Source: Ectothiorhodospiraceae bacterium
GTDB lineage: Bacteria; Pseudomonadota; Gammaproteobacteria; Nitrococcales; Aquisalimonadaceae
DNA length: 58,659 bases
Assembly: GCA_020831885.1 (NCBI GenBank)
Contig: JAFIFU010000017.1
Span: forward strand, 1 to 58,659
Direction: 5' to 3'
Part shown: positions 8,293 to 26,974 of the stretch, piece after piece
Layout: the number at the start of each line of letters is the position of its first letter
Numbering within the stretch: position 1 is the stretch's first letter
Notes under the pieces: model-generated
The model's input: the letters and a program-made list of their open reading frames with translations, nothing else
Told to the model about the DNA's origin: nothing
Databases searched by the model: none
Position numbers and translations under genes: made by a program

Positions 8293-8385
8293 TAAAATAT
8301 TGCCTCCGTGCGATGGCCGGAATGGTAAACTTCTGGTGGTAGCGAAAAGACGATTGGGGATGGAGCGCCGGAAAAGGAGGATTTG

Positions 8386-8997
8386 ATGGCTGTACGTGCT
8401 TCCAATGTGCGGCGTGGGCGGCAGGGCCGTGGTGAGCGTGGTGGTGAACGCCGCAGGCAGGAAATCATCAGTAAATCTGCCAGACTGTTCGCCACCAAGG
8501 GTTTTGATGCAACGTCCATGCGTGACATCGCAGCGGCCGCAGGGCTGAACGCGGGCTCGCTGTACTACCATTTCAAGTCGAAGGATGAACTCTTCCTTGC
8601 GGTGCATTCTGCCGGAGTTGAATCGGCCATGGAGGCGGTTCGCAAGGCTCTCGAAGGGCTGACCGACCCTTGGGAACGACTTGAGGCGGCTGCGGCTGCT
8701 CACGCCTCCGCATTGTTTGAGTCAGCGGATTTGATGATCATGCTTGTTCCGAATTTTCCTGGCGGCTTCAGCGAGTTCCGCGATGAACTCGTTCGGCAAC
8801 GTGATGAGTATGAGCAGATCATCCGTGACCTGGTGACCGATCTGGACCTGCCAGCGGACATCGACCGGGATGTATTCCGCCTGCATTTCCTTGGCGCGCT
8901 TAACTGGACGCAGACCTGGTATCGCCCGAACTCACGGCTGACGCCTGAGGATATCGGTCGCCAACTCGTGCGCATCCTGCGCTGCTCGCGGGAGTAG
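8386..8997 (+). CDS. TetR-family regulator of acyl-CoA catabolism
   Basis: This 203-residue repressor-type protein has an N-terminal helix-turn-helix (residues about 20-70: ATSMRDIAAAAGLNAGSLYYHFKS, shown here only as the HTH core AAAGLNAGSLYYHF) and a C-terminal ligand and dimer domain. The C-terminal LNWTQTWYRP stretch resembles TetR members such as KstR2 that sense acyl-CoA intermediates; that is a family resemblance, not proof of ligand. The ATG at 8386 follows AAAGGAGG. It is divergent from a ligase and precedes the reductase-P450-thiolase operon. A palindromic motif recurs at these promoters and at the distant mutase promoter, making this gene the leading candidate for their shared regulator. 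Confidence 0.88.
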   Translation: MAVRASNVRRGRQGRGERGGERRRQEIISKSARLFATKGFDATSMRDIAAAAGLNAGSLYYHFKSKDELFLAVHSAGVESAMEAVRKALEGLTDPWERLEAAAAAHASALFESADLMIMLVPNFPGGFSEFRDELVRQRDEYEQIIRDLVTDLDLPADIDRDVFRLHFLGALNWTQTWYRPNSRLTPEDIGRQLVRILRCSRE

Positions 8998-9162: not shown

Positions 9163-10128
9163 ATGATCGAGGTCCAAGTCCGCGAGAGGCGGAAAGAAGC
9201 GGATGCCGTGGCCGGTTTTGTGTTGGAGACGGTGTCCGGGGAAGCGCTTCCGGATTGGGAACCGGGCGCCCACATCGACGTGGAACTGACAACTGCGGAC
9301 GGAAAAACGGTGCTGCGCCAGTATTCGCTGTGCGGAGAGGTGGATGATCCACGCTGGCGTATCGCGGTGCTTGATACACCTGACTCCCGCGGCGGCTCCC
9401 GCGCCATGCATTCCGAGATCGATACCGGGAAGCTGATCCGGGTCAGTGAGCCCCGGAATAACTTTCCACTCCACGAGGGGGATGCCCCGGCCGTACTCAT
9501 TGCGGGTGGCATCGGGGTGACTCCGATCCTGCCCATGGCCCGGGAACTGCACCGCAGGGGCGCGCGCTTCCGGATGCATTATCAATACCGCTCCGAGACT
9601 GCCGCCGCGTTTCTGGAGGAACTGAAAGCCGCGCCGTTTGCCGAGTCGGTCACCTTCGGATCCGACAGCAAGATGGACCCGAAGGCTGCCATTAACGCGG
9701 CGCTTAAGGATGCTGACCCCAAGGGGCACTTCTATGTGTGCGGCCCCGCCGGCTTTATCGAGGCGGCAGAGATCGCCGCAGCCGCAGCCGGATTCAGTGC
9801 TCACCGTATCCACCGAGAGCTTTTCTCCGCGGCCCAGGCAGCGGTGGATACGGAGGATGATGAGCAATTCGAACTCGTCCTGGCGGAGTCTGGGTTTTCG
9901 GTATTGGTGCCACCAGGAAAGACGGCAGTTGCAGCCCTTGAGGAGGCTGGTGTTGATGTGCCGGTGTCCTGTGAACAGGGTGTGTGTGGCTCGTGCCTGA
10001 CGAAAGTGCTTGAAGGTGAGCCGGACCATCGGGATGCCTTCCTCATGCCTGAAGAGCGCAAGCGCGGTGATTACTTTACGCCGTGCTGCTCCCGTGCCAG
10101 GAGCGAACGCCTGGTGGTCGCGCTCTGA
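9163..10128 (+). CDS. Phthalate dioxygenase reductase-family electron transfer protein
   Basis: This 321-residue cytoplasmic flavoprotein moves electrons from NAD(P)H through flavin to a plant-type [2Fe-2S] centre. The flavin motif RQYSLCG, the nucleotide-binding GGIGVTPILPMA and YVCGPAGF, and the cluster motif CEQGVCGSC (C-x4-C-x2-C with a fourth Cys near FTPCC) appear in the order typical of VanB and phthalate dioxygenase reductases. Such reductases normally serve Rieske oxygenases, but the only oxygenase nearby is the P450 that begins 23 nt downstream. It is therefore likely the dedicated redox partner of that P450. Confidence 0.92.
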   Translation: MIEVQVRERRKEADAVAGFVLETVSGEALPDWEPGAHIDVELTTADGKTVLRQYSLCGEVDDPRWRIAVLDTPDSRGGSRAMHSEIDTGKLIRVSEPRNNFPLHEGDAPAVLIAGGIGVTPILPMARELHRRGARFRMHYQYRSETAAAFLEELKAAPFAESVTFGSDSKMDPKAAINAALKDADPKGHFYVCGPAGFIEAAEIAAAAAGFSAHRIHRELFSAAQAAVDTEDDEQFELVLAESGFSVLVPPGKTAVAALEEAGVDVPVSCEQGVCGSCLTKVLEGEPDHRDAFLMPEERKRGDYFTPCCSRARSERLVVAL

Positions 10129-10151
10129 ACTGATCGATCCGGAGAATACCA

Positions 10152-11360
10152 ATGGAACTCGTATACGACCCGACTCGACCGGACATTCGCCGGGATCCGT
10201 TTCCTCTCTACCAGCAACTCCAGGAAAATGACCCTGTTCACTGGAGCGAGCCCCTTCAGAGCTGGATCGTGACCCGGTACGCTGACGTGCGGAAGGTGGC
10301 GATGAGCAAGGAGTTGTCCCCGGATCGCCTCACGCCCTTCTATGAGGCCAGCCGGGGTGAGCGCCGCGAATTGCTCACGGAAATCATGCGTTACCTGAAT
10401 CGCTGGCTGGTATTCCGTGATCCGCCGGAGCATACCCGACTGCGTCGGCTGCTCAACACGGTGTTCACGCCCTCGGCGATCGCCTCCCTGCGGCCCACAA
10501 TCACCGGCACCGTCGAGCACATTCTCGCCGACATCGACGACAGCCAGCCCATCGACTTCATCAGCAAGTTCGCGATGCTGCTACCCGGCTACGTCATCAT
10601 GGACATGCTGGATATCCCGCGTGAGGACTTCCCGAAAATCAAGGTCTGGTCAGATGATATGCGGTTGTTTATCGGTTCCGCGCGGGACGTACCCGATAAG
10701 TATCAGCGGGCCCACGATGGCTGCGTGAACATGGCCGAGTATTTCCGTGGGGTCATCCGTGAGCGGCGCGCGAACCCGGGGGAGGATTTCGTCAGCCGAA
10801 TGACAAAGGCCCGCGACGAGGGCAACATGCTGACCGAGGATGAACTGATCGCGACCTGCATGCTTTTGCTATTCGCCGGGCATGAGACAACCACCAACCT
10901 GCTGGGTAACGCGGTCAAGGCGATGATCGACTTCCCGGAGCAACGTGAGCGCCTGCGCGAGAACCCGGACATGATCGAGACGGCCGTGGAGGAGTTTCTG
11001 CGGTATGACGGACCCAGCAACTCCATCGCCCGGGTGGTCGCTGTCGATCACGAACTGGGCGGAAAACAACTGCGGAAGGGCGAGCGCGTGTTCGCAATGA
11101 TCAATGCGGCCAACCGGGATCCCCAGCAGTTCGAGCGCCCCCAGGATCTGGATCTCTCCAGGTCCCCGAATCGGCATCTGACCTTCGGTCAGGGGCCCCA
11201 TTTCTGCCTTGGCGCCCCGCTGGCACGGCTCGAGGGGAATGTTGCACTGGCCATCATCGCCGAACGGTTCCCGAACCTGCGGGCGGCTGACAAGGAACCG
11301 GATTGGGTGGATGCGCTCATCATGCGTGGCCTGATGCGACTACCCGTACGGCTGACCTGA
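10152..11360 (+). CDS. Cytochrome P450 monooxygenase
   Basis: This 402-residue soluble bacterial P450 uses O2 and two electrons to hydroxylate its substrate. The I-helix oxygen-activation motif is LLFAGHETTTN, the K-helix ExxR is EEFLR, and the heme loop FGQGPHFCLGAPLARLE places the thiolate ligand at Cys352. The length is normal for a class I enzyme with no fused reductase. It is sandwiched between a phthalate-family reductase and a thiolase gene in one operon, pointing to hydroxylation of an alicyclic, terpenoid or branched acid before CoA-dependent chain shortening. The substrate is inference only. Confidence 0.93.
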   Translation: MELVYDPTRPDIRRDPFPLYQQLQENDPVHWSEPLQSWIVTRYADVRKVAMSKELSPDRLTPFYEASRGERRELLTEIMRYLNRWLVFRDPPEHTRLRRLLNTVFTPSAIASLRPTITGTVEHILADIDDSQPIDFISKFAMLLPGYVIMDMLDIPREDFPKIKVWSDDMRLFIGSARDVPDKYQRAHDGCVNMAEYFRGVIRERRANPGEDFVSRMTKARDEGNMLTEDELIATCMLLLFAGHETTTNLLGNAVKAMIDFPEQRERLRENPDMIETAVEEFLRYDGPSNSIARVVAVDHELGGKQLRKGERVFAMINAANRDPQQFERPQDLDLSRSPNRHLTFGQGPHFCLGAPLARLEGNVALAIIAERFPNLRAADKEPDWVDALIMRGLMRLPVRLT

Positions 11361-11400
11361 CGGCGAGAGCGTGCGGTGGAGTCCGCAGGAGGAGACGAAC

Positions 11401-12654
11401 GTGCAAGATGTTTATGTGATTGGCACTGCCTGTACACCGTTCGGGAAGCATCCGGACCTGGGCTTCAAGGAGCTCACCCGCCAGGTGTACACCCGGGTGC
11501 TCGAAGACTCGTGCTTGCCGGACGCCGGAGCGATTGAGCAGGCGTGGTTCGGTAACTGCGGAATGGGCACGTTTGGCCAGCGGAACATTCGCGGCCAGGT
11601 CTGCTTCACGCCTCTGGTTCGCGAGGGCCTGTTCCCTGAAAGAGTGGGGATCATCAACGTGGAGGGCGGCTGCGCCACCGCGTCAATGGCGTTCCACGGC
11701 GCCTGGAAGGACGTGTTGTCCGGCCAGGCTGACGTCTCGTTGGCCGTGGGCGTGGAGAAGACCTTCATCCCGGACGATCCGGCCCGTACTCAGGAGATCT
11801 TCGAGGGCGGGATCGATCAACTGGATCCCGAGGAATGGCACGCCTATTATGCGGATGCCGGACAGCGTTCGGGCAAACCGTTTCAGCCGAATGCGGGCGG
11901 CGGTACCGTCTTCATGGACACCTACGCAATGCAGGCGGCTTACCACATGAAGCGGTTTGGTACGACCCAGGAGCAGATTGCCCGTGGGGCATCGAAGAAC
12001 CACGCCATGGGCGCGCGCAACCCGCTCGCGCAATACCGCTTCGAAGTCACACCGGAAGAGGTTTTGGCGGATCGGGAGGTGAGTTGGCCCCTGACGCGCT
12101 CCATGTGCGCCCCGGTGGGCGACGGCGCTGCGGCGGCCCTGCTCTGCTCGGAGAAGTTCCTGAGATCCCTGCCTCCGGCGGCGCAGGAGCGCGCGATCCG
12201 AGTCCGGGCCAGCGTGTTGACCGGCGGCAAATACCGTGACCTGGACGAGCCCGGCCTGTCCCATGTCGCCGCCAAACGCGCCTATGCTGCGTCAGGCTTG
12301 GCGCCCGAAGACGTGGATGTGGCCGAGGTGCATGACGCCACCGCCTTCTGCGAGATCTATCAGAGCGAGATGCTGGGTTTCTGCGAAATCGGGAAAGGCG
12401 GTGAGTTCGTGGCTTCGGGGGCCACGGCGCTGGACGGGCGAATTCCAGTCAACCTCTCCGGTGGCCTGGTCTCCAAGGGGCATCCAGTGGGGGCTACCGG
12501 GCTTTCCATGATTCATGAACTGGCGTTGCAACTGCGTCAGGAGGCCGGGGAGCGGCAGCGCCCTAACGCCCGGATCGCACTCGCCGAAAACGGTGGAGGC
12601 GTTGTCGGTTTCGACGAGGCAGCCTGCTCGATCATTCTGCTTGAAGCGCGTTGA
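11401..12654 (+). CDS. Thiolase family protein, SCPx-type
   Basis: This 417-residue enzyme resembles the thiolase domain of sterol carrier protein X, which cleaves branched or bulky 3-ketoacyl-CoAs. The acylated Cys is at about position 91 (NVEGGCATASMAF). Later motifs are HDATAFCEIYQSEMLG, GGLVSKGHPVGATG and LAENGGG; the second active-site Cys of classical thiolases is replaced by the NGGG stretch, as is usual for this subgroup. The GTG at 11401 is chosen because an AGGAGGAG ribosome site precedes it and the family N-terminus DVYVIGTA begins there. It ends the operon started by the reductase and P450. Confidence 0.9.
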   Translation: MQDVYVIGTACTPFGKHPDLGFKELTRQVYTRVLEDSCLPDAGAIEQAWFGNCGMGTFGQRNIRGQVCFTPLVREGLFPERVGIINVEGGCATASMAFHGAWKDVLSGQADVSLAVGVEKTFIPDDPARTQEIFEGGIDQLDPEEWHAYYADAGQRSGKPFQPNAGGGTVFMDTYAMQAAYHMKRFGTTQEQIARGASKNHAMGARNPLAQYRFEVTPEEVLADREVSWPLTRSMCAPVGDGAAAALLCSEKFLRSLPPAAQERAIRVRASVLTGGKYRDLDEPGLSHVAAKRAYAASGLAPEDVDVAEVHDATAFCEIYQSEMLGFCEIGKGGEFVASGATALDGRIPVNLSGGLVSKGHPVGATGLSMIHELALQLRQEAGERQRPNARIALAENGGGVVGFDEAACSIILLEAR

Positions 12655-21620: not shown

Positions 21621-21707
21621 GCCGGGATGGCGGAACTGGTAGACGCGCCGGACTCAAAATCCGGTTCTGGCGACAGAGTGTGGGTTCGAGTCCCACTCCC
21701 GGCACCA
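21621..21707 (+). tRNA. tRNA-Leu (anticodon CAA)
   Basis: The 87-nt sequence folds as a class II tRNA. The acceptor GCCGGGA pairs with TCCCGGC, the discriminator is A and the CCA end is encoded (21705-21707). The D arm begins TGGCGGAACTGGTAGACG, typical of bacterial leucine tRNAs. The anticodon stem CCGGA/TCCGG holds the loop CTCAAAA, giving anticodon CAA, which reads UUG. A variable arm separates it from the T arm GGGTTCGAGTCCC. It is divergent from queA. Confidence 0.97.
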
Positions 21708-21924: not shown

Positions 21925-23544
21925 GTGATTCTGCACAGCCCGGAACTGATCAGAACCTACACCGAACAGGGTTACTGGGGCGACAAGACCTTGCTGCAGC
22001 GCTTCGCCGGCAACTGCGCGGCGCACCCGCAGCGCGAGGCGATCGTTGACCCCCCCGACCGCCAGGAGCTTGTGGGAACCATGCCCCGGCGCATCAGTTG
22101 GGGAGAACTGGAACGTGCCGTGGAAGCCACGGCCGAGGAACTGGCCCGCCGGGGCTTCGGCAAGGACGATGTGCTGGTGGCGCAGCTACCCAACGTCTGG
22201 GAGCTGGCCATGCTCTATCTGGCGGCGGCCCGGGCCGGCGGCGTGCTGACGGCGCTGCCCATGCAGTGGCGCAGCAAGGACGTGGGCTACGTGAAAGAGC
22301 TGACCGAATCCCGCTTCTACGTCTCGGCCGACACGTTCAAGGGCTTCAGCTACCGCGCCCTGGGGGAGGAACTCGGTTTCCAGCACTACATGGAGCTCCG
22401 GGAACTGACCGAAGTCGCGTCCCGCGAGCCGCGGAACCCGGTCGACGTCGCGGTGGAAGCCAACGACATTTTCACGCTGTGCTGGACCTCGGGGACCGAA
22501 GCCAATCCCAAGGGCTGCCCCATGAGCCACAACAACTGGGAGTATGTGACCAACACGATCTCCCCGATATGCGGCATCCAGCCGGCGGATCGTATCCTGT
22601 GCGTGGCGCCACTGGTCAACATGACCGCAGTGGGTGTGAACTACGTTCCCTGGCTGTACGCCGCCGGCACCCTGGTGCTGCACCACCCGATCACGCCGGA
22701 CATCCTGATGCGCCAGTTACTGGACGAGGGCATTCAGTACACCATTCTCGTGCCGGCGATGCTGAACATGATTGCCAAGCTCCCCAACGTGGATGAACTG
22801 GATCTATCCCGCATCCGCACCATCACCACCGGCTCGGCACCACCCTCGGCGTGGTCCATGCAGGAGTTCAAGCGTCGCTGGGACATCAATATCGTGAACA
22901 TCTGGGGCCAGAACGAGGGTACCGCGCTGGTTGCCGGTCCGGCGGATGTGCCGGAGCTGGACCGGCGGGTGGATCATTTCCCCTGGTGGGGCAAACCGGG
23001 CCGTGAGTGGCCCTCTGGTGTCCGCGGCGTCGAAGCCAGAATCCTGGATGAGGAAGGGCGGGACGTGACCGAGCCCGGGGGGATCGGCGAGCTGGTCTAC
23101 CGCAGCCCCGGTGTGTTTGCCGGCTATTTCAAGCGGCCCGACCTGGCAGAGCGTGCCTTCACTGCCGACGGCTTTTTCCGTACCGGCGATCTGTTCATCG
23201 TGCAGGAACCGGATTTCGTGGGTTTCTACGACCGCAAGAAGGACATCGTGATCCGTGGCGGCTTCAACATCTCCAGCGTGGAGGTGGAAAACGCGGTTCA
23301 GGGTTACCGGAAAGTGCAGGACGTGGCGGTGATTCCGGTTCCGGACGAAACGCTGGGCGAACGGGTCTGCGTCTGTGTGGTGCCGCGGGATCCGGATGAT
23401 GCGCCCACCCTGGAGGAGATCAATGAGCACCTCAAGGGCATTGGCATGAGTGTCTACAAGCTTCCGGAAAGACTGAAGCTCGTCGAAGAGATTCCCCGGA
23501 ACCCGGTGGGCAAGATCCTGAAAAAGGAACTGCGGGCGCCGTGA
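21925..23544 (+). CDS. AMP-forming acyl-CoA ligase near the mutase operon
   Basis: This 539-residue ligase activates a carboxylic acid to its CoA ester. Motifs are WTSGTEANPKGCPMSH (phosphate loop, with Glu-Ala in place of the usual Thr-Gly), WGQNEGTALV, FRTGDLF, DRKKDIVIRGGFNISSVEVE and PRNPVGKILKKELR with the catalytic Lys. The GTG at 21925 follows GGAGGAGCACC. It lies 481 bp before the B12 mutase genes, a neighbourhood seen in 2-hydroxyisobutyryl-CoA mutase clusters, where a ligase supplies the mutase. The gap contains its own promoter, so the genes are probably not one transcript. Confidence 0.9.
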   Translation: MILHSPELIRTYTEQGYWGDKTLLQRFAGNCAAHPQREAIVDPPDRQELVGTMPRRISWGELERAVEATAEELARRGFGKDDVLVAQLPNVWELAMLYLAAARAGGVLTALPMQWRSKDVGYVKELTESRFYVSADTFKGFSYRALGEELGFQHYMELRELTEVASREPRNPVDVAVEANDIFTLCWTSGTEANPKGCPMSHNNWEYVTNTISPICGIQPADRILCVAPLVNMTAVGVNYVPWLYAAGTLVLHHPITPDILMRQLLDEGIQYTILVPAMLNMIAKLPNVDELDLSRIRTITTGSAPPSAWSMQEFKRRWDINIVNIWGQNEGTALVAGPADVPELDRRVDHFPWWGKPGREWPSGVRGVEARILDEEGRDVTEPGGIGELVYRSPGVFAGYFKRPDLAERAFTADGFFRTGDLFIVQEPDFVGFYDRKKDIVIRGGFNISSVEVENAVQGYRKVQDVAVIPVPDETLGERVCVCVVPRDPDDAPTLEEINEHLKGIGMSVYKLPERLKLVEEIPRNPVGKILKKELRAP

Positions 23545-24025: not shown

Positions 24026-24451
24026 ATGAACCACCGCGGCAAAGTACTTCTCACTAAGATCGGTCTCGACGCACACGACCGAGGTAGCCGCATCGTGGCC
24101 ACGTACCTGCGCGATGCCGGAATGGAGGTGATCTATACGGGCCCTTGGCAACAGATTCCGGATGTTGTGAATCTGGCTGACCAAGAGGATGTTGATGTGA
24201 TCGGCATCTCCAGCCTGGCAACGGACCACGCGCTGGTGCCGGGGCTGATTCAGGCGCTTCGCGAGGCCGGTCTTGGCCATATCCGGGTCGTGGTGGGTGG
24301 AATCGTGCCCAACGCGGAAGCGGACGAGCTGATTCAGGCCGGTGTTGCACGGATCTTCCACCCCGGCGCAAGCCGAGAAAGTATCGTGCAGGAAGTGGAG
24401 GCGCTCGCTGCAGAAGCGCGCACCACTATCGAGCAGGATCATCAGGCATGA
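24026..24451 (+). CDS. B12-binding small subunit of an acyl-CoA mutase
   Basis: This 141-residue protein is a stand-alone cobalamin-binding domain of the methylmalonyl-CoA mutase type. The histidine that replaces the lower cobalt ligand lies in LDAHDRGSRIV (His17, the D-x-H-x-x-G motif), followed by GISSLATDHALVPGL and the glycine pair VVVGGIVP. It would bind adenosylcobalamin base-off and dock onto the large subunit encoded 43 nt downstream. Separate small subunits occur in isobutyryl- and 2-hydroxyisobutyryl-CoA mutases. The ATG follows CACGGAGG and the promoter at 23933-23961. Confidence 0.93.
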   Translation: MNHRGKVLLTKIGLDAHDRGSRIVATYLRDAGMEVIYTGPWQQIPDVVNLADQEDVDVIGISSLATDHALVPGLIQALREAGLGHIRVVVGGIVPNAEADELIQAGVARIFHPGASRESIVQEVEALAAEARTTIEQDHQA

Positions 24452-24494
24452 CGCGCCACCAACGATTACGACCAGTAAACATGAGGGGTTGGCC

Positions 24495-26207
24495 ATGAGC
24501 GAGCACCAGGAACAGAAGGGCTCCGCTACGGTATCGCAGGGGGATGGCAAGCCGGGCGATGCGGAGGCGCAGCGCGCCTGGAAAGAGCGTCTGACGGATT
24601 TGCTGGGCCCCGACGATAGGCGCACGAACCGCTCCGGGCTGGAAGTCCGGGCACTGTACGACCCCAATGACTGGGACTCCAGCCGGTACCTGGAAGATCT
24701 CGGATACCCCGGCGAGCCCCCGTTCACACGGGGCATACACACTAGCATGCACCGTGGGCGACCTTGGACACCACGGCTGGTGGTCGGTTACGGGATCCCG
24801 GAGGACTACAACAAGCGGATGCACCACCTTTACGAGCTTGGGCTTACCGGGCTCTACGTATCGCCATGCAACAGCCATATGCGCGGCTACGACCCGGATC
24901 AGGTGGAGCCGGTACTGTTGGGCACCTGCGGAACATTGATCGCCACCAAGGAGGACATGGATCTCTGTCTGGACGGTCTGCCCATCGACCGAGAGTCCGT
25001 GGCCCTGGGAGACACGGCTCCTTATACGCTCTCGGCCTTGATGTTCAACGTGGCGAAGGACCGAGGCATTGCGTGGCGCACGCTTGCAGGCACCTCAACC
25101 CAGTCGGACTACCTCTCGCACTGCGCCGCGCTCGGTATGTTCTTCCGCATCCCTCTGGATGCTCAGCGCCGTGCGCTGCTCGACCATGTCACCTGGATGA
25201 ATGAGACCGCGCCACGGTGGAATCCCATGTCCGTGGTCGGACAGCATTACCAGCAGGCTGGAGCCACGCCGGCGGAGGCCATGGGTTTCGCCTTGTCGGC
25301 AGCCCTTCAGCACGGGATGGACCTGGTCGACCGCGGCGCCGATCCGGAGGCGTTTCTGGCCCGGTTCAGCTTCTTCTTCGACGTTTCCCTCAGCTTCTTC
25401 GAGGAGGTTGCGAAGTTCCGCGCCGGGCGCCGGGTATGGTCCCGGCTGGTACGGGAGCGTTTCGGGGTAAAGAGCGCCCAAGCGAAGCGCCTGCGCTTCC
25501 ATGTTCAAACCTCTGGCGCGGACTTAACACGCCAGCAGCCGCTGAACAACATTGCGCGCGTGACAGTCCAGGCTATGGCGGGAATATTCGGTGGATTGCA
25601 GTCCCTGCATACGGACGCCTACGATGAAGCAATCTGCAGTCCCACAGAGCAATCCGCCCGGATTGCCGTCGCTACCCAGCACATTCTCCGCGACGAGGCC
25701 CACCTCGCCGACGTTATTGATCCGCTCGGGGGCTCTTACTACGTGGAACGGCTTACCGATGAGATGGAGGAACAAATCCTGTCGGTGATACGCATTGTCG
25801 ATGAGGCTGGCGGGATGTTTGAGGCGGTGCGGGACGGTGTCGTGCAGTCGATGATCGGCCGGTCCGCGTTGCAGCACCAGCGTGCCATTGACAGCGGGGA
25901 ACAGGTGGTGGTTGGCCTCAACAGATACGTCATCCCCGAATCCGAGGATGGGGATGAACAGGTCCTGCAACGGCCGGATCCCGAACGCATCGCGCGCTAC
26001 CTGGACCGCCTTAAGCATTTCCGCGAAACCCGTCAGCAGCGCCCGGTCCAACGTGCCCTGGACGAACTTGCCCGGGCCTACGAGAGCACCGATCAAAACA
26101 CCTACCAGGCAGTGATACGGGCGGTGGCGGCCGGCGCAACCCATGGCGAGATTTGCGGGCGCGTCCGGGAAACAGTCGGATTCGGCAATCCTCCGGTGGT
26201 GGTATGA
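24495..26207 (+). CDS. Acyl-CoA mutase large subunit, substrate class unassigned
   Basis: This 570-residue TIM-barrel subunit of a B12-dependent carbon-skeleton mutase keeps the fold signatures: FTRGIHTSM, RGYDPD, GGLQSLHTDAYDEA, VIDPLGGSYYVE and the catalytic His251 in GQHYQQAG. Substrate residues are unusual. The Tyr89 position of methylmalonyl-CoA mutase is Val96 (PRLVVGYG). The Arg207 position is Leu213 or Ala212, depending on one gap. Tyr243 is Gln250, and the usual TMY is SMH. Methylmalonyl enzymes have Tyr/Arg, isobutyryl Phe/Gln and 2-hydroxyisobutyryl Ile/Gln. The pocket should therefore be uncharged and different. The ATG at 24495 follows GAGGGG. The gene overlaps the GTPase gene by ATGA. 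Confidence 0.9.
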   Translation: MSEHQEQKGSATVSQGDGKPGDAEAQRAWKERLTDLLGPDDRRTNRSGLEVRALYDPNDWDSSRYLEDLGYPGEPPFTRGIHTSMHRGRPWTPRLVVGYGIPEDYNKRMHHLYELGLTGLYVSPCNSHMRGYDPDQVEPVLLGTCGTLIATKEDMDLCLDGLPIDRESVALGDTAPYTLSALMFNVAKDRGIAWRTLAGTSTQSDYLSHCAALGMFFRIPLDAQRRALLDHVTWMNETAPRWNPMSVVGQHYQQAGATPAEAMGFALSAALQHGMDLVDRGADPEAFLARFSFFFDVSLSFFEEVAKFRAGRRVWSRLVRERFGVKSAQAKRLRFHVQTSGADLTRQQPLNNIARVTVQAMAGIFGGLQSLHTDAYDEAICSPTEQSARIAVATQHILRDEAHLADVIDPLGGSYYVERLTDEMEEQILSVIRIVDEAGGMFEAVRDGVVQSMIGRSALQHQRAIDSGEQVVVGLNRYVIPESEDGDEQVLQRPDPERIARYLDRLKHFRETRQQRPVQRALDELARAYESTDQNTYQAVIRAVAAGATHGEICGRVRETVGFGNPPVVV

Positions 26208-26974
26208 GCGCCGTGGATACCGGACGGGACCGTTCACTCGAGGCGCTTGTGGAGCGCATTGTGGATGGGCACCCCCGCAGTATCGCTCGCGCCATCACAG
26301 AGATTGAGGACCAGACGGCGCGCGGCGAGAGTATACTTCAGCAATTGCCGGAACCGGACCAACCGGCGGCTGTGGTGGGCATCACGGGTCCTCCCGGAGT
26401 CGGGAAATCGACCCTGATCAACGCGCTGATCACCGAGCTGCGGGCCCGTGAACTCCGAGTTGGCGTGTTGTCTGTGGACCCCTCTAGCCCCGTCTCCGGT
26501 GGCGCCGTGCTCGGTGACCGCATCCGCATGGCCCGGCACGCCAGCGACCCGGGAGTCTTCATTCGCTCATTGGCGTCGCGCGGGCAAATCGGCGGGCTGT
26601 GCCGAACCATCGATCGGGTGATCCGGCTTGTGCATGCGGCTGGCTTTGACCTGTTAATCGTCGAAACAGTTGGGACCGGCCAGGTGGATGTCGCCATCAC
26701 CGAGGTGGCTAACACCAATGTCGCGCTATTTGCGCCCGGGCTCGGCGACGAAATCCAGGCCCTCAAGGCTGGCATCCTGGAGGTTGCTGATATTCTGGTG
26801 GTGAACCGGGCGGACAGTCCCCACACCCGGGGGACGCTGTTGGAACTGGAATCCATGCTCGCGTTGCGCGGCACCGAGCAGCGCCGGGTGCCGGTGCTGG
26901 CGACGATCGCGACCACCGGCGAAGGCGTGGCGGAATTGGCTGACCGCATCCTTGATCTCGCCAGCTCAGATTAG
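26204..26974 (+). CDS. MeaB/ArgK-type GTPase chaperone of the mutase, short form
   Basis: This 256-residue G3E-family GTPase should load or protect the B12 cofactor of the adjacent mutase. It has Walker A GPPGVGKSTLIN, the DPSSPVSGGAVLGDRIRM switch region, ETVGTGQ and NRAD in place of the common NKAD. It ends at GEGVAELADRILDLASSD, so the C-terminal dimerisation arm found in roughly 330-residue MeaB proteins is missing. The start ATG at 26204 overlaps the mutase stop (ATGA), indicating translational coupling. Upstream in-frame starts are not needed. Confidence 0.92.
   Translation: MSAVDTGRDRSLEALVERIVDGHPRSIARAITEIEDQTARGESILQQLPEPDQPAAVVGITGPPGVGKSTLINALITELRARELRVGVLSVDPSSPVSGGAVLGDRIRMARHASDPGVFIRSLASRGQIGGLCRTIDRVIRLVHAAGFDLLIVETVGTGQVDVAITEVANTNVALFAPGLGDEIQALKAGILEVADILVVNRADSPHTRGTLLELESMLALRGTEQRRVPVLATIATTGEGVAELADRILDLASSD

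Follow-up and report, generated by a model that had tools for sequence, protein, structure and literature searches.

A candidate quaternary-carbon acyl-CoA mutase of the Xaut_5043 lineage with its own pocket signature

The mutase module and its proteins

We have analysed a stretch of DNA from an Ectothiorhodospiraceae bacterium (contig JAFIFU010000017.1 of assembly GCA_020831885.1, positions 1 to 58,659; this whole stretch is called the window below), in which positions 24026-26974 of the forward strand are occupied by three adjacent genes for a B12-binding small subunit, a mutase large subunit and a MeaB-type GTPase. These genes would encode an adenosylcobalamin (AdoCbl)-dependent acyl-CoA mutase, composed of alpha and B12-binding beta, together with its own MeaB chaperone. 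The large subunit belongs to the clade of mutases that contains Xaut_5043 of Xanthobacter autotrophicus Py2 and, within this clade, to a sub-branch with pocket residues of its own. The coordinates of the genes and of the codons discussed are collected in Table 1.

The match to PF01642, the column of the catalytic His and the DxHxxG motif in the small subunit place the proteins in the superfamily of AdoCbl-dependent acyl-CoA mutases. In the small subunit, the DxHxxG (read as DAHDRG), SxL and GG motifs were recognised by eye. The large subunit also matched TIGR00641 at 452 bits (cut-off 304), and NCBI-style models name its family methylmalonyl-CoA mutase N-terminal domain; the equivalog cut-offs were nonetheless missed, with 389 of 876 bits for methylmalonyl-CoA mutase (MCM) and 180 of 1500 bits for IcmF. 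A preliminary description of this DNA, made from the letters, had stated that the large subunit keeps the fold and the catalytic motifs. Indeed, the predicted structure, which served for the fold only, is confident (mean pLDDT 90.3) and shows an intact acyl-CoA mutase barrel, with tied Z scores of 51.4 (human MCM, 8dyj) and 51.3 (2-hydroxyisobutyryl-CoA mutase, HCM; 4r3u); His251 corresponds to the catalytic His244 of MCM. Furthermore, of 112 residues that never vary among the other clade rows compared, the large subunit of the window keeps 110.

The ATG of the MeaB gene at 26204 overlaps the stop codon of the large subunit (ATGA). In an alignment with six relatives, this MeaB ends about 70 residues short and has no C-terminal arm, a remnant of which was sought downstream of the gene and not found. 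Its base-specificity motif is NRAD and not NKAD, and GQV stands for GQS, while the rest of the G domain is intact. The genome of the window encodes a PduO-type adenosyltransferase and gives a single PF01642 match, and hence has no separate MCM.

Lineage and pocket residues of the large subunit

When genome contigs were scanned, the best 80 of 573 relatives fell into 35 loci (L002-L035 and L045) with 53-63% identity to the window and 45 others at no more than 43%. Plasmids showed a similar gap: among the matches listed from the 426 records that hold a relative, identity drops from 53-58% in the top six to 41% in the one after; viral contigs gave only two partial relatives (41-44%). One of those six plasmid matches is Xaut_5043, which, with Xaut_5044, we take to be the characterised isovaleryl-CoA/pivalyl-CoA mutase (PCM). 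The native enzyme of this name was reportedly described by Kitanishi, Cracan and Banerjee (J Biol Chem 2015). The other mutase of the same plasmid, Xaut_5021, is 83% identical to HCM and carries its Ile/Gln pair, and is therefore not PCM.

In three quick trees, for which SH-aLRT was the only support value, the window stood inside the clade of Xaut_5043 with 100% support, the clade comprising 39 of 87, 54 of 63 and 22 of 38 rows. Two MCM references and HCM were placed outside it, as were, in the 38-row tree, Xaut_5021 and the annotated IcmF of Ideonella, the latter on a very long branch. HCM was the sole reference in the 63-row tree, and named ethylmalonyl and unfused isobutyryl mutases (IcmA) lay outside the comparison. 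The window itself sits on a long terminal branch (0.49-0.67).

Residues were paired by HMMER pairwise alignment, by MAFFT and by a profile-profile alignment of 40 clade members with 20 other mutases; PDB 5req is the Y89F mutant, and its F marks the MCM column 89. All three alignments bear out the pairings Val96 = Tyr89 and Gln250 = Tyr243 that had been proposed in the preliminary description, as well as the replacement of TMY by SMH (His86 for the Tyr). That description had left Arg207 to either Leu213 or Ala212: the former holds in each alignment, and the latter, which is Ala in 59 of the 60 clade rows, drops out. The loop SPCNSHMRGYD reads as it had been written, and the Val/Leu pair is, as claimed, unlike that of any named class among the references, namely Tyr/Arg in the two MCMs (the Y89F mutant and the human enzyme), Ile/Gln in HCM and Phe/Gln in the annotated IcmF. 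That the protein is an MCM, an isobutyryl-CoA mutase or an HCM misread through a bad alignment is hence scarcely credible; the general fold is shared and the family models do carry the MCM name, but the three kinds of alignment agree, the trees place the references of those classes outside the clade, and the MCM and IcmF cut-offs are not reached.

Among these replacements, Gln250, His86 and the PCNS loop are traits of the whole clade, whereas Val96 and Leu213 are special to a sub-branch. Indeed, Cys125 is found in all 60 clade rows, Pro124 in 58, Ser127 in 57, Asn126 in 56 and His86 in 50, so that Gln250, the SMH triplet and the loop, singled out earlier as oddities, turn out to be ordinary in this lineage. 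The large subunit conserves Arg82, Arg87, Arg283, His328, Gln330, Gln361 and Ser362, presumably the contacts of the CoA tunnel. Arg207 and Tyr89, which we take to handle the substrate carboxylate in MCM, are absent, and an uncharged acyl group would thus fit.

The 60 clade rows, which include near copies (L118 and L008 from the same place, two in L083, and the pairs L027/L045 and L015/L017), can be categorized by positions 96 and 213: 12 have Val or Ile with Leu (VL), 45 have Leu with Asn as in Xaut_5043 (PCM-type), and three have Leu with Leu. These counts used all 60 rows, six of which (L035, L122, L118, L083_22215, L045 and L017) are omitted from the 63-row tree. The VL rows form one branch with 98% support in that tree and 97% in the 38-row tree, which holds nine of them. 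At five pocket positions (96, 121, 172, 213 and 292) the two types differ with no exception (Table 1), and the window, with Val, Tyr, Gly, Leu and Ser, shares none of the five PCM-type residues; both types keep the catalytic His, present in 12 of 12 VL rows. Altogether, 27 of 540 columns discriminate VL from the 45 PCM-type rows, and these comprise five of 28 pocket positions against 22 of 512 others (one-sided Fisher p 0.009). As a control for circularity, the 27 columns were removed, and 10 of the 12 VL rows, including the window, remained one branch (99%).

A separate clade with the same pocket residues, which had been put forward as the test of a new class, therefore exists in the VL branch. 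The claim of a new class is borne out as far as a strict signature of its own is concerned but not as a free-standing class, since the window is nested within the PCM lineage at 100% support; what would be new is the VL sub-branch with its pocket signature, the PCM lineage being already known.

The third combination, Leu96 with Leu213, was seen in L113, L116 and L122 (in G431, G432 and G448), and the frame of L122 is interrupted by a stop. Outside the clade, two mutases (L160:1309-3009, which lies beside B12-binding and MeaB genes, and L041) have Val/Gln at the two specificity positions.

Table 1. Features of the mutase module and codons of the pocket (positions in the window)
Feature	Position	Strand	Evidence or distribution
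tRNA-Leu(CAA), left edge of module	21621..21707	+	same tRNA beside queA in 12/12 relatives' stretches fetched
Acyl/aryl-CoA ligase (AMP-forming), 539 aa, possible activating enzyme	21925..23544	+	PF00501, PF13193; ~0.5 kb upstream
B12-binding small subunit (beta), 141 aa	24026..24451	+	PF02310 85 bits, TIGR00640 120 bits (cut-off 57)
Mutase large subunit (alpha), 570 aa, VL subtype of PCM clade	24495..26207	+	PF01642 510 bits (cut-off 22.1); trees
Val96 codon (MCM Tyr89 column)	24780..24782	+	V/I 12/12 VL, L 45/45 PCM-type
Tyr121 codon (MCM Ser114 column)	24855..24857	+	Y/F 12/12 VL; PCM-type S 44, N 1 of 45
Gly172 codon (MCM Thr166 column)	25008..25010	+	G 12/12 VL, N 45/45 PCM-type
Leu213 codon (MCM Arg207 column)	25131..25133	+	L 12/12 VL, N 45/45 PCM-type; L in the 3 Leu/Leu rows
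Gln250-His251 codons (MCM Tyr243-His244 columns)	25242..25247	+	Q and H in 60/60 clade rows
Ser292 codon (MCM Ser285 column)	25368..25370	+	S 12/12 VL, T 45/45 PCM-type
MeaB-type G-protein chaperone, 256 aa	26204..26974	+	PF03308 250 bits, profile 1-233 of 273

Xaut_5043 is 54.5% identical to the large subunit over 550 residues and shares with it the clade, the gene order small-large-MeaB, Gln250, the PCCS/PCNS loop and His86, but has Leu, Ser, Asn, Asn and Thr where the window has Val96, Tyr121, Gly172, Leu213 and Ser292; a TetR gene also stands ahead of its locus, with no counterpart at that place in the window. IcmF shares the fold (Z 43.5 to 5cjw over 495 residues, rmsd 1.8), and its entries 5cjw and 5cjv are, by their titles, solved with pivalyl-CoA and isovaleryl-CoA, but its pocket is Phe/Gln, its subunits and G-protein form a single fused chain, and the clade does not include it. 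According to PMC10481361 and PMC9974510, IcmF also interconverts pivalyl- and isovaleryl-CoA, and PMC2847961 refers to a rearrangement that has been proposed for pivalic acid. HCM (4r3u) is the top sequence match among solved structures (326.8 bits) and likewise has separate alpha and beta, but differs in its Ile/Gln pair and its retained Tyr243. MCM resembles the window protein in fold and CoA-tunnel residues, whereas its Tyr89, Arg207 and Tyr243 are all replaced. No description of the VL branch was found in the literature searched, which covers few subscription journals.

Co-occurrence with PCM-type genes and genomic setting

In two genomes, G431 and G432, VL and PCM-type genes are consecutive behind a single clade-type small-subunit gene, in the order tetR, small subunit, VL large subunit, PCM-type large subunit, MeaB and a third mutase with a second small subunit. 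In G431 the two clade-type large subunits share 61% identity, and the third mutase in both genomes has Tyr/Arg with Ala at the Tyr243 column. G420 and G433 each hold a VL gene and, on a different contig, a complete PCM-type cluster. Among the search matches, each of these four genomes has one clade-type small subunit (63-68% identical) besides several others at no more than 46%, with one further 57% match over 64 residues in G431. Relatives of the small subunit of the window (63-69% identical) were found in nine of the 10 VL genomes searched; G674 gave only a fragment of 38 residues at 82%. The retention of the two types side by side argues for different substrates, and the VL enzyme may thus handle a compound different from that of PCM.

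It is conceivable but improbable that the VL subunit instead serves as a regulatory or structural partner in a mixed VL and PCM-type oligomer sharing beta, for which the inactive small chain of the classical alpha-beta MCM offers a parallel. The tandem genes of G431 and G432 would suit such an oligomer, as would the VL genes with no adjoining small subunit (L002, L117, L003, L121 and L115). His251 is, however, kept in every VL row, the window retains nearly all of the invariant residues, and its genome holds no second mutase as the partner.

Operon-like groups of three large subunits (VL, PCM-type and Tyr/Arg with Ala), two small subunits and one MeaB were seen at L112:7053-14881 and L114:3181-10919. 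The Ala-type mutase also occurs in L084 (a Diaphorobacter plasmid, from 24590), about 11 kb from a PCM-type gene.

In the window, the ligase, mutase and MeaB genes stand beside tRNA-Leu and near liv and liu genes, the latter named LiuA-E by reading, with the carboxylase and acyl-CoA dehydrogenase families matched. A mutase of the clade was not found in 13 relatives of the same family, two of them congeners, at E <= 1e-100, and was found in only four of 369 genomes sampled from the class (E <= 1e-150), namely that of the window and three with the PCM type. In the congener G002, identity to the window is 86-95% between livG and the beginning of liuA and 50% for DUF945, but a 1068-aa ORF between DUF945 and tRNA-Leu replaces the ligase, mutase and MeaB. 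The module is therefore either a recent arrival or lost from G002. A search of both strands of the window for a repeat of the final 12-25 bases of tRNA-Leu, as phage-like integration might leave, found none; integrase genes lay outside this search. A horizontally acquired gene that is now a relic or in decay might likewise be absent from relatives, have a long end branch and be accompanied by a MeaB with no arm, yet we regard this as very improbable given the three open frames, the ATGA overlap between large subunit and MeaB, and the invariant residues retained.

The liu neighbourhood was considered as proof of a pivalate route and rejected, since at the corresponding place G002 carries the liv genes together with the FadD11-like ligase and that end of liuA which the fetched stretch includes, but no mutase module; proximity thus does not prove that these genes act in one pathway. 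Chemically, the connection with the liu pathway suggested in the preliminary description still makes sense, but its support from neighbours is weakened. When 26 clade loci of at least 15 kb were compared with 32 loci of other mutases, FadD11-like neighbours were found in 6/26 against 0/32 and liv genes in 7/26 against 2/32, a possible echo of the setting in the window, whereas LiuB-like matches were as common or commoner near the other mutases (14/32 against 6/26); for L027 and L033, NCBIfam could not separate 3-methylcrotonyl- from geranyl-CoA carboxylase. A prediction of the substrate from neighbours was rejected as well, for the VL loci share no common catabolic neighbour: the VL gene of L005 is followed by an acyl-CoA carboxylase-like ORF and ORFs read as benzoyl-CoA-reductase-like, and those of L003 and L121 by unrelated ORFs; in G421 and G440, the clade-type small subunit stands with MeaB apart from the large subunit, and its neighbours are likewise uninformative. 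The window ligase has salicylate and 2,3-dihydroxybenzoate AMP ligases as its nearest solved structures.

Candidate reaction and further observations

Quaternary carbons resist ordinary beta-oxidation, and we know of few enzymes that open them. If the enzyme works as others of its family do, the Co-C bond of AdoCbl would break, the 5'-deoxyadenosyl radical would abstract a hydrogen of the acyl moiety, and a radical 1,2-shift would carry the CoA-thioester carbonyl to the neighbouring carbon. VL enzymes have Gly/Leu in place of the polar Asn/Asn pair of PCM (MCM columns 166 and 207) and an aromatic residue at column 114, which is mostly Ser in PCM; because Asn172 and Asn213 give way to Gly and Leu, and Ser121 to an aromatic, the VL pocket is probably more apolar than the PCM pocket and differently shaped. 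The substrate would most likely be an uncharged acyl-CoA, other than pivalyl-CoA, whose alpha carbon is quaternary or tertiary, for example a larger 2,2-dimethyl-alkanoyl-CoA, and the product a 3-methyl-branched acyl-CoA that may be delivered into the leucine (liu) route.

We lean, with modest confidence, towards reading the VL branch as a subclass of quaternary-carbon acyl-CoA mutase within the PCM lineage, whose substrate would differ from pivalyl-CoA. The fuller proposal, in which a new mutase class has its own uncharged quaternary-carbon substrate and, in some alphaproteobacteria, works beside a pivalyl-type mutase with one beta serving two catalytic chains, is tentative, and doubt slightly prevails. 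Several points weigh against our reading. With the 27 discriminating columns removed, L003 and L121 drop out of the VL branch, so that VL may be a grade and the VL state older than the PCM state. The clade loci with FadD11 or liv neighbours are all PCM-type and none VL, and the window ligase has no close counterpart at other VL loci. The substrate assignment draws on residues and context; no assay of any VL enzyme was found in the literature searched, in which the name given to Xaut_5043 did not appear either.

The window might alternatively encode an ordinary PCM in which the VL residues are neutral drift, the ligase activating pivalate and the mutase supplying isovaleryl-CoA to the liu enzymes. 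This is unlikely in our view but deserves weight: the window falls within the clade of Xaut_5043, its small-large-MeaB order is that of Xaut_5044-5043-5042, liu genes for isovaleryl-CoA are in the window, and Val, with a smaller side chain than the Phe found in IcmF, would leave room for one more methyl group. Drift is nonetheless hard to reconcile with five pocket positions that switch together with no exception in 12 against 45 rows, and the two types, together in four genomes and in one operon, would be redundant on the same substrate. If the VL branch is indeed a subclass with its own substrate, its members in Pseudomonadota and Actinomycetota, with a strict pocket signature and kept beside a pivalyl-type relative, would be concrete candidates for new skeleton rearrangements, and the natural VL/PCM pairs would offer a ready test of which pocket positions determine substrate choice in the family.

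Further observations concern the surroundings of these genes. A TetR-type gene at window 8383-8997, beside another ligase and about 15 kb from the module, is 33-47% identical to the TetR genes found ahead of the small subunit at many loci of the clade. At window 9163-12654, Pfam matches show a run of ferredoxin-type reductase, cytochrome P450 and thiolase-like genes, possibly another degradation cluster. At L002:1425-13073, the VL large subunit lies directly before cobalamin-synthesis-like ORFs, with an EthD-domain ORF ahead (Pfam-checked). L123:8444-11868 (G448) has two tandem PCM-type large subunits behind one small subunit, with MeaB adjoining, and L083:10830-24908, on a Sphingobium plasmid, carries two copies of the PCM-type cluster surrounded by IS6100 and ISSp1 elements.

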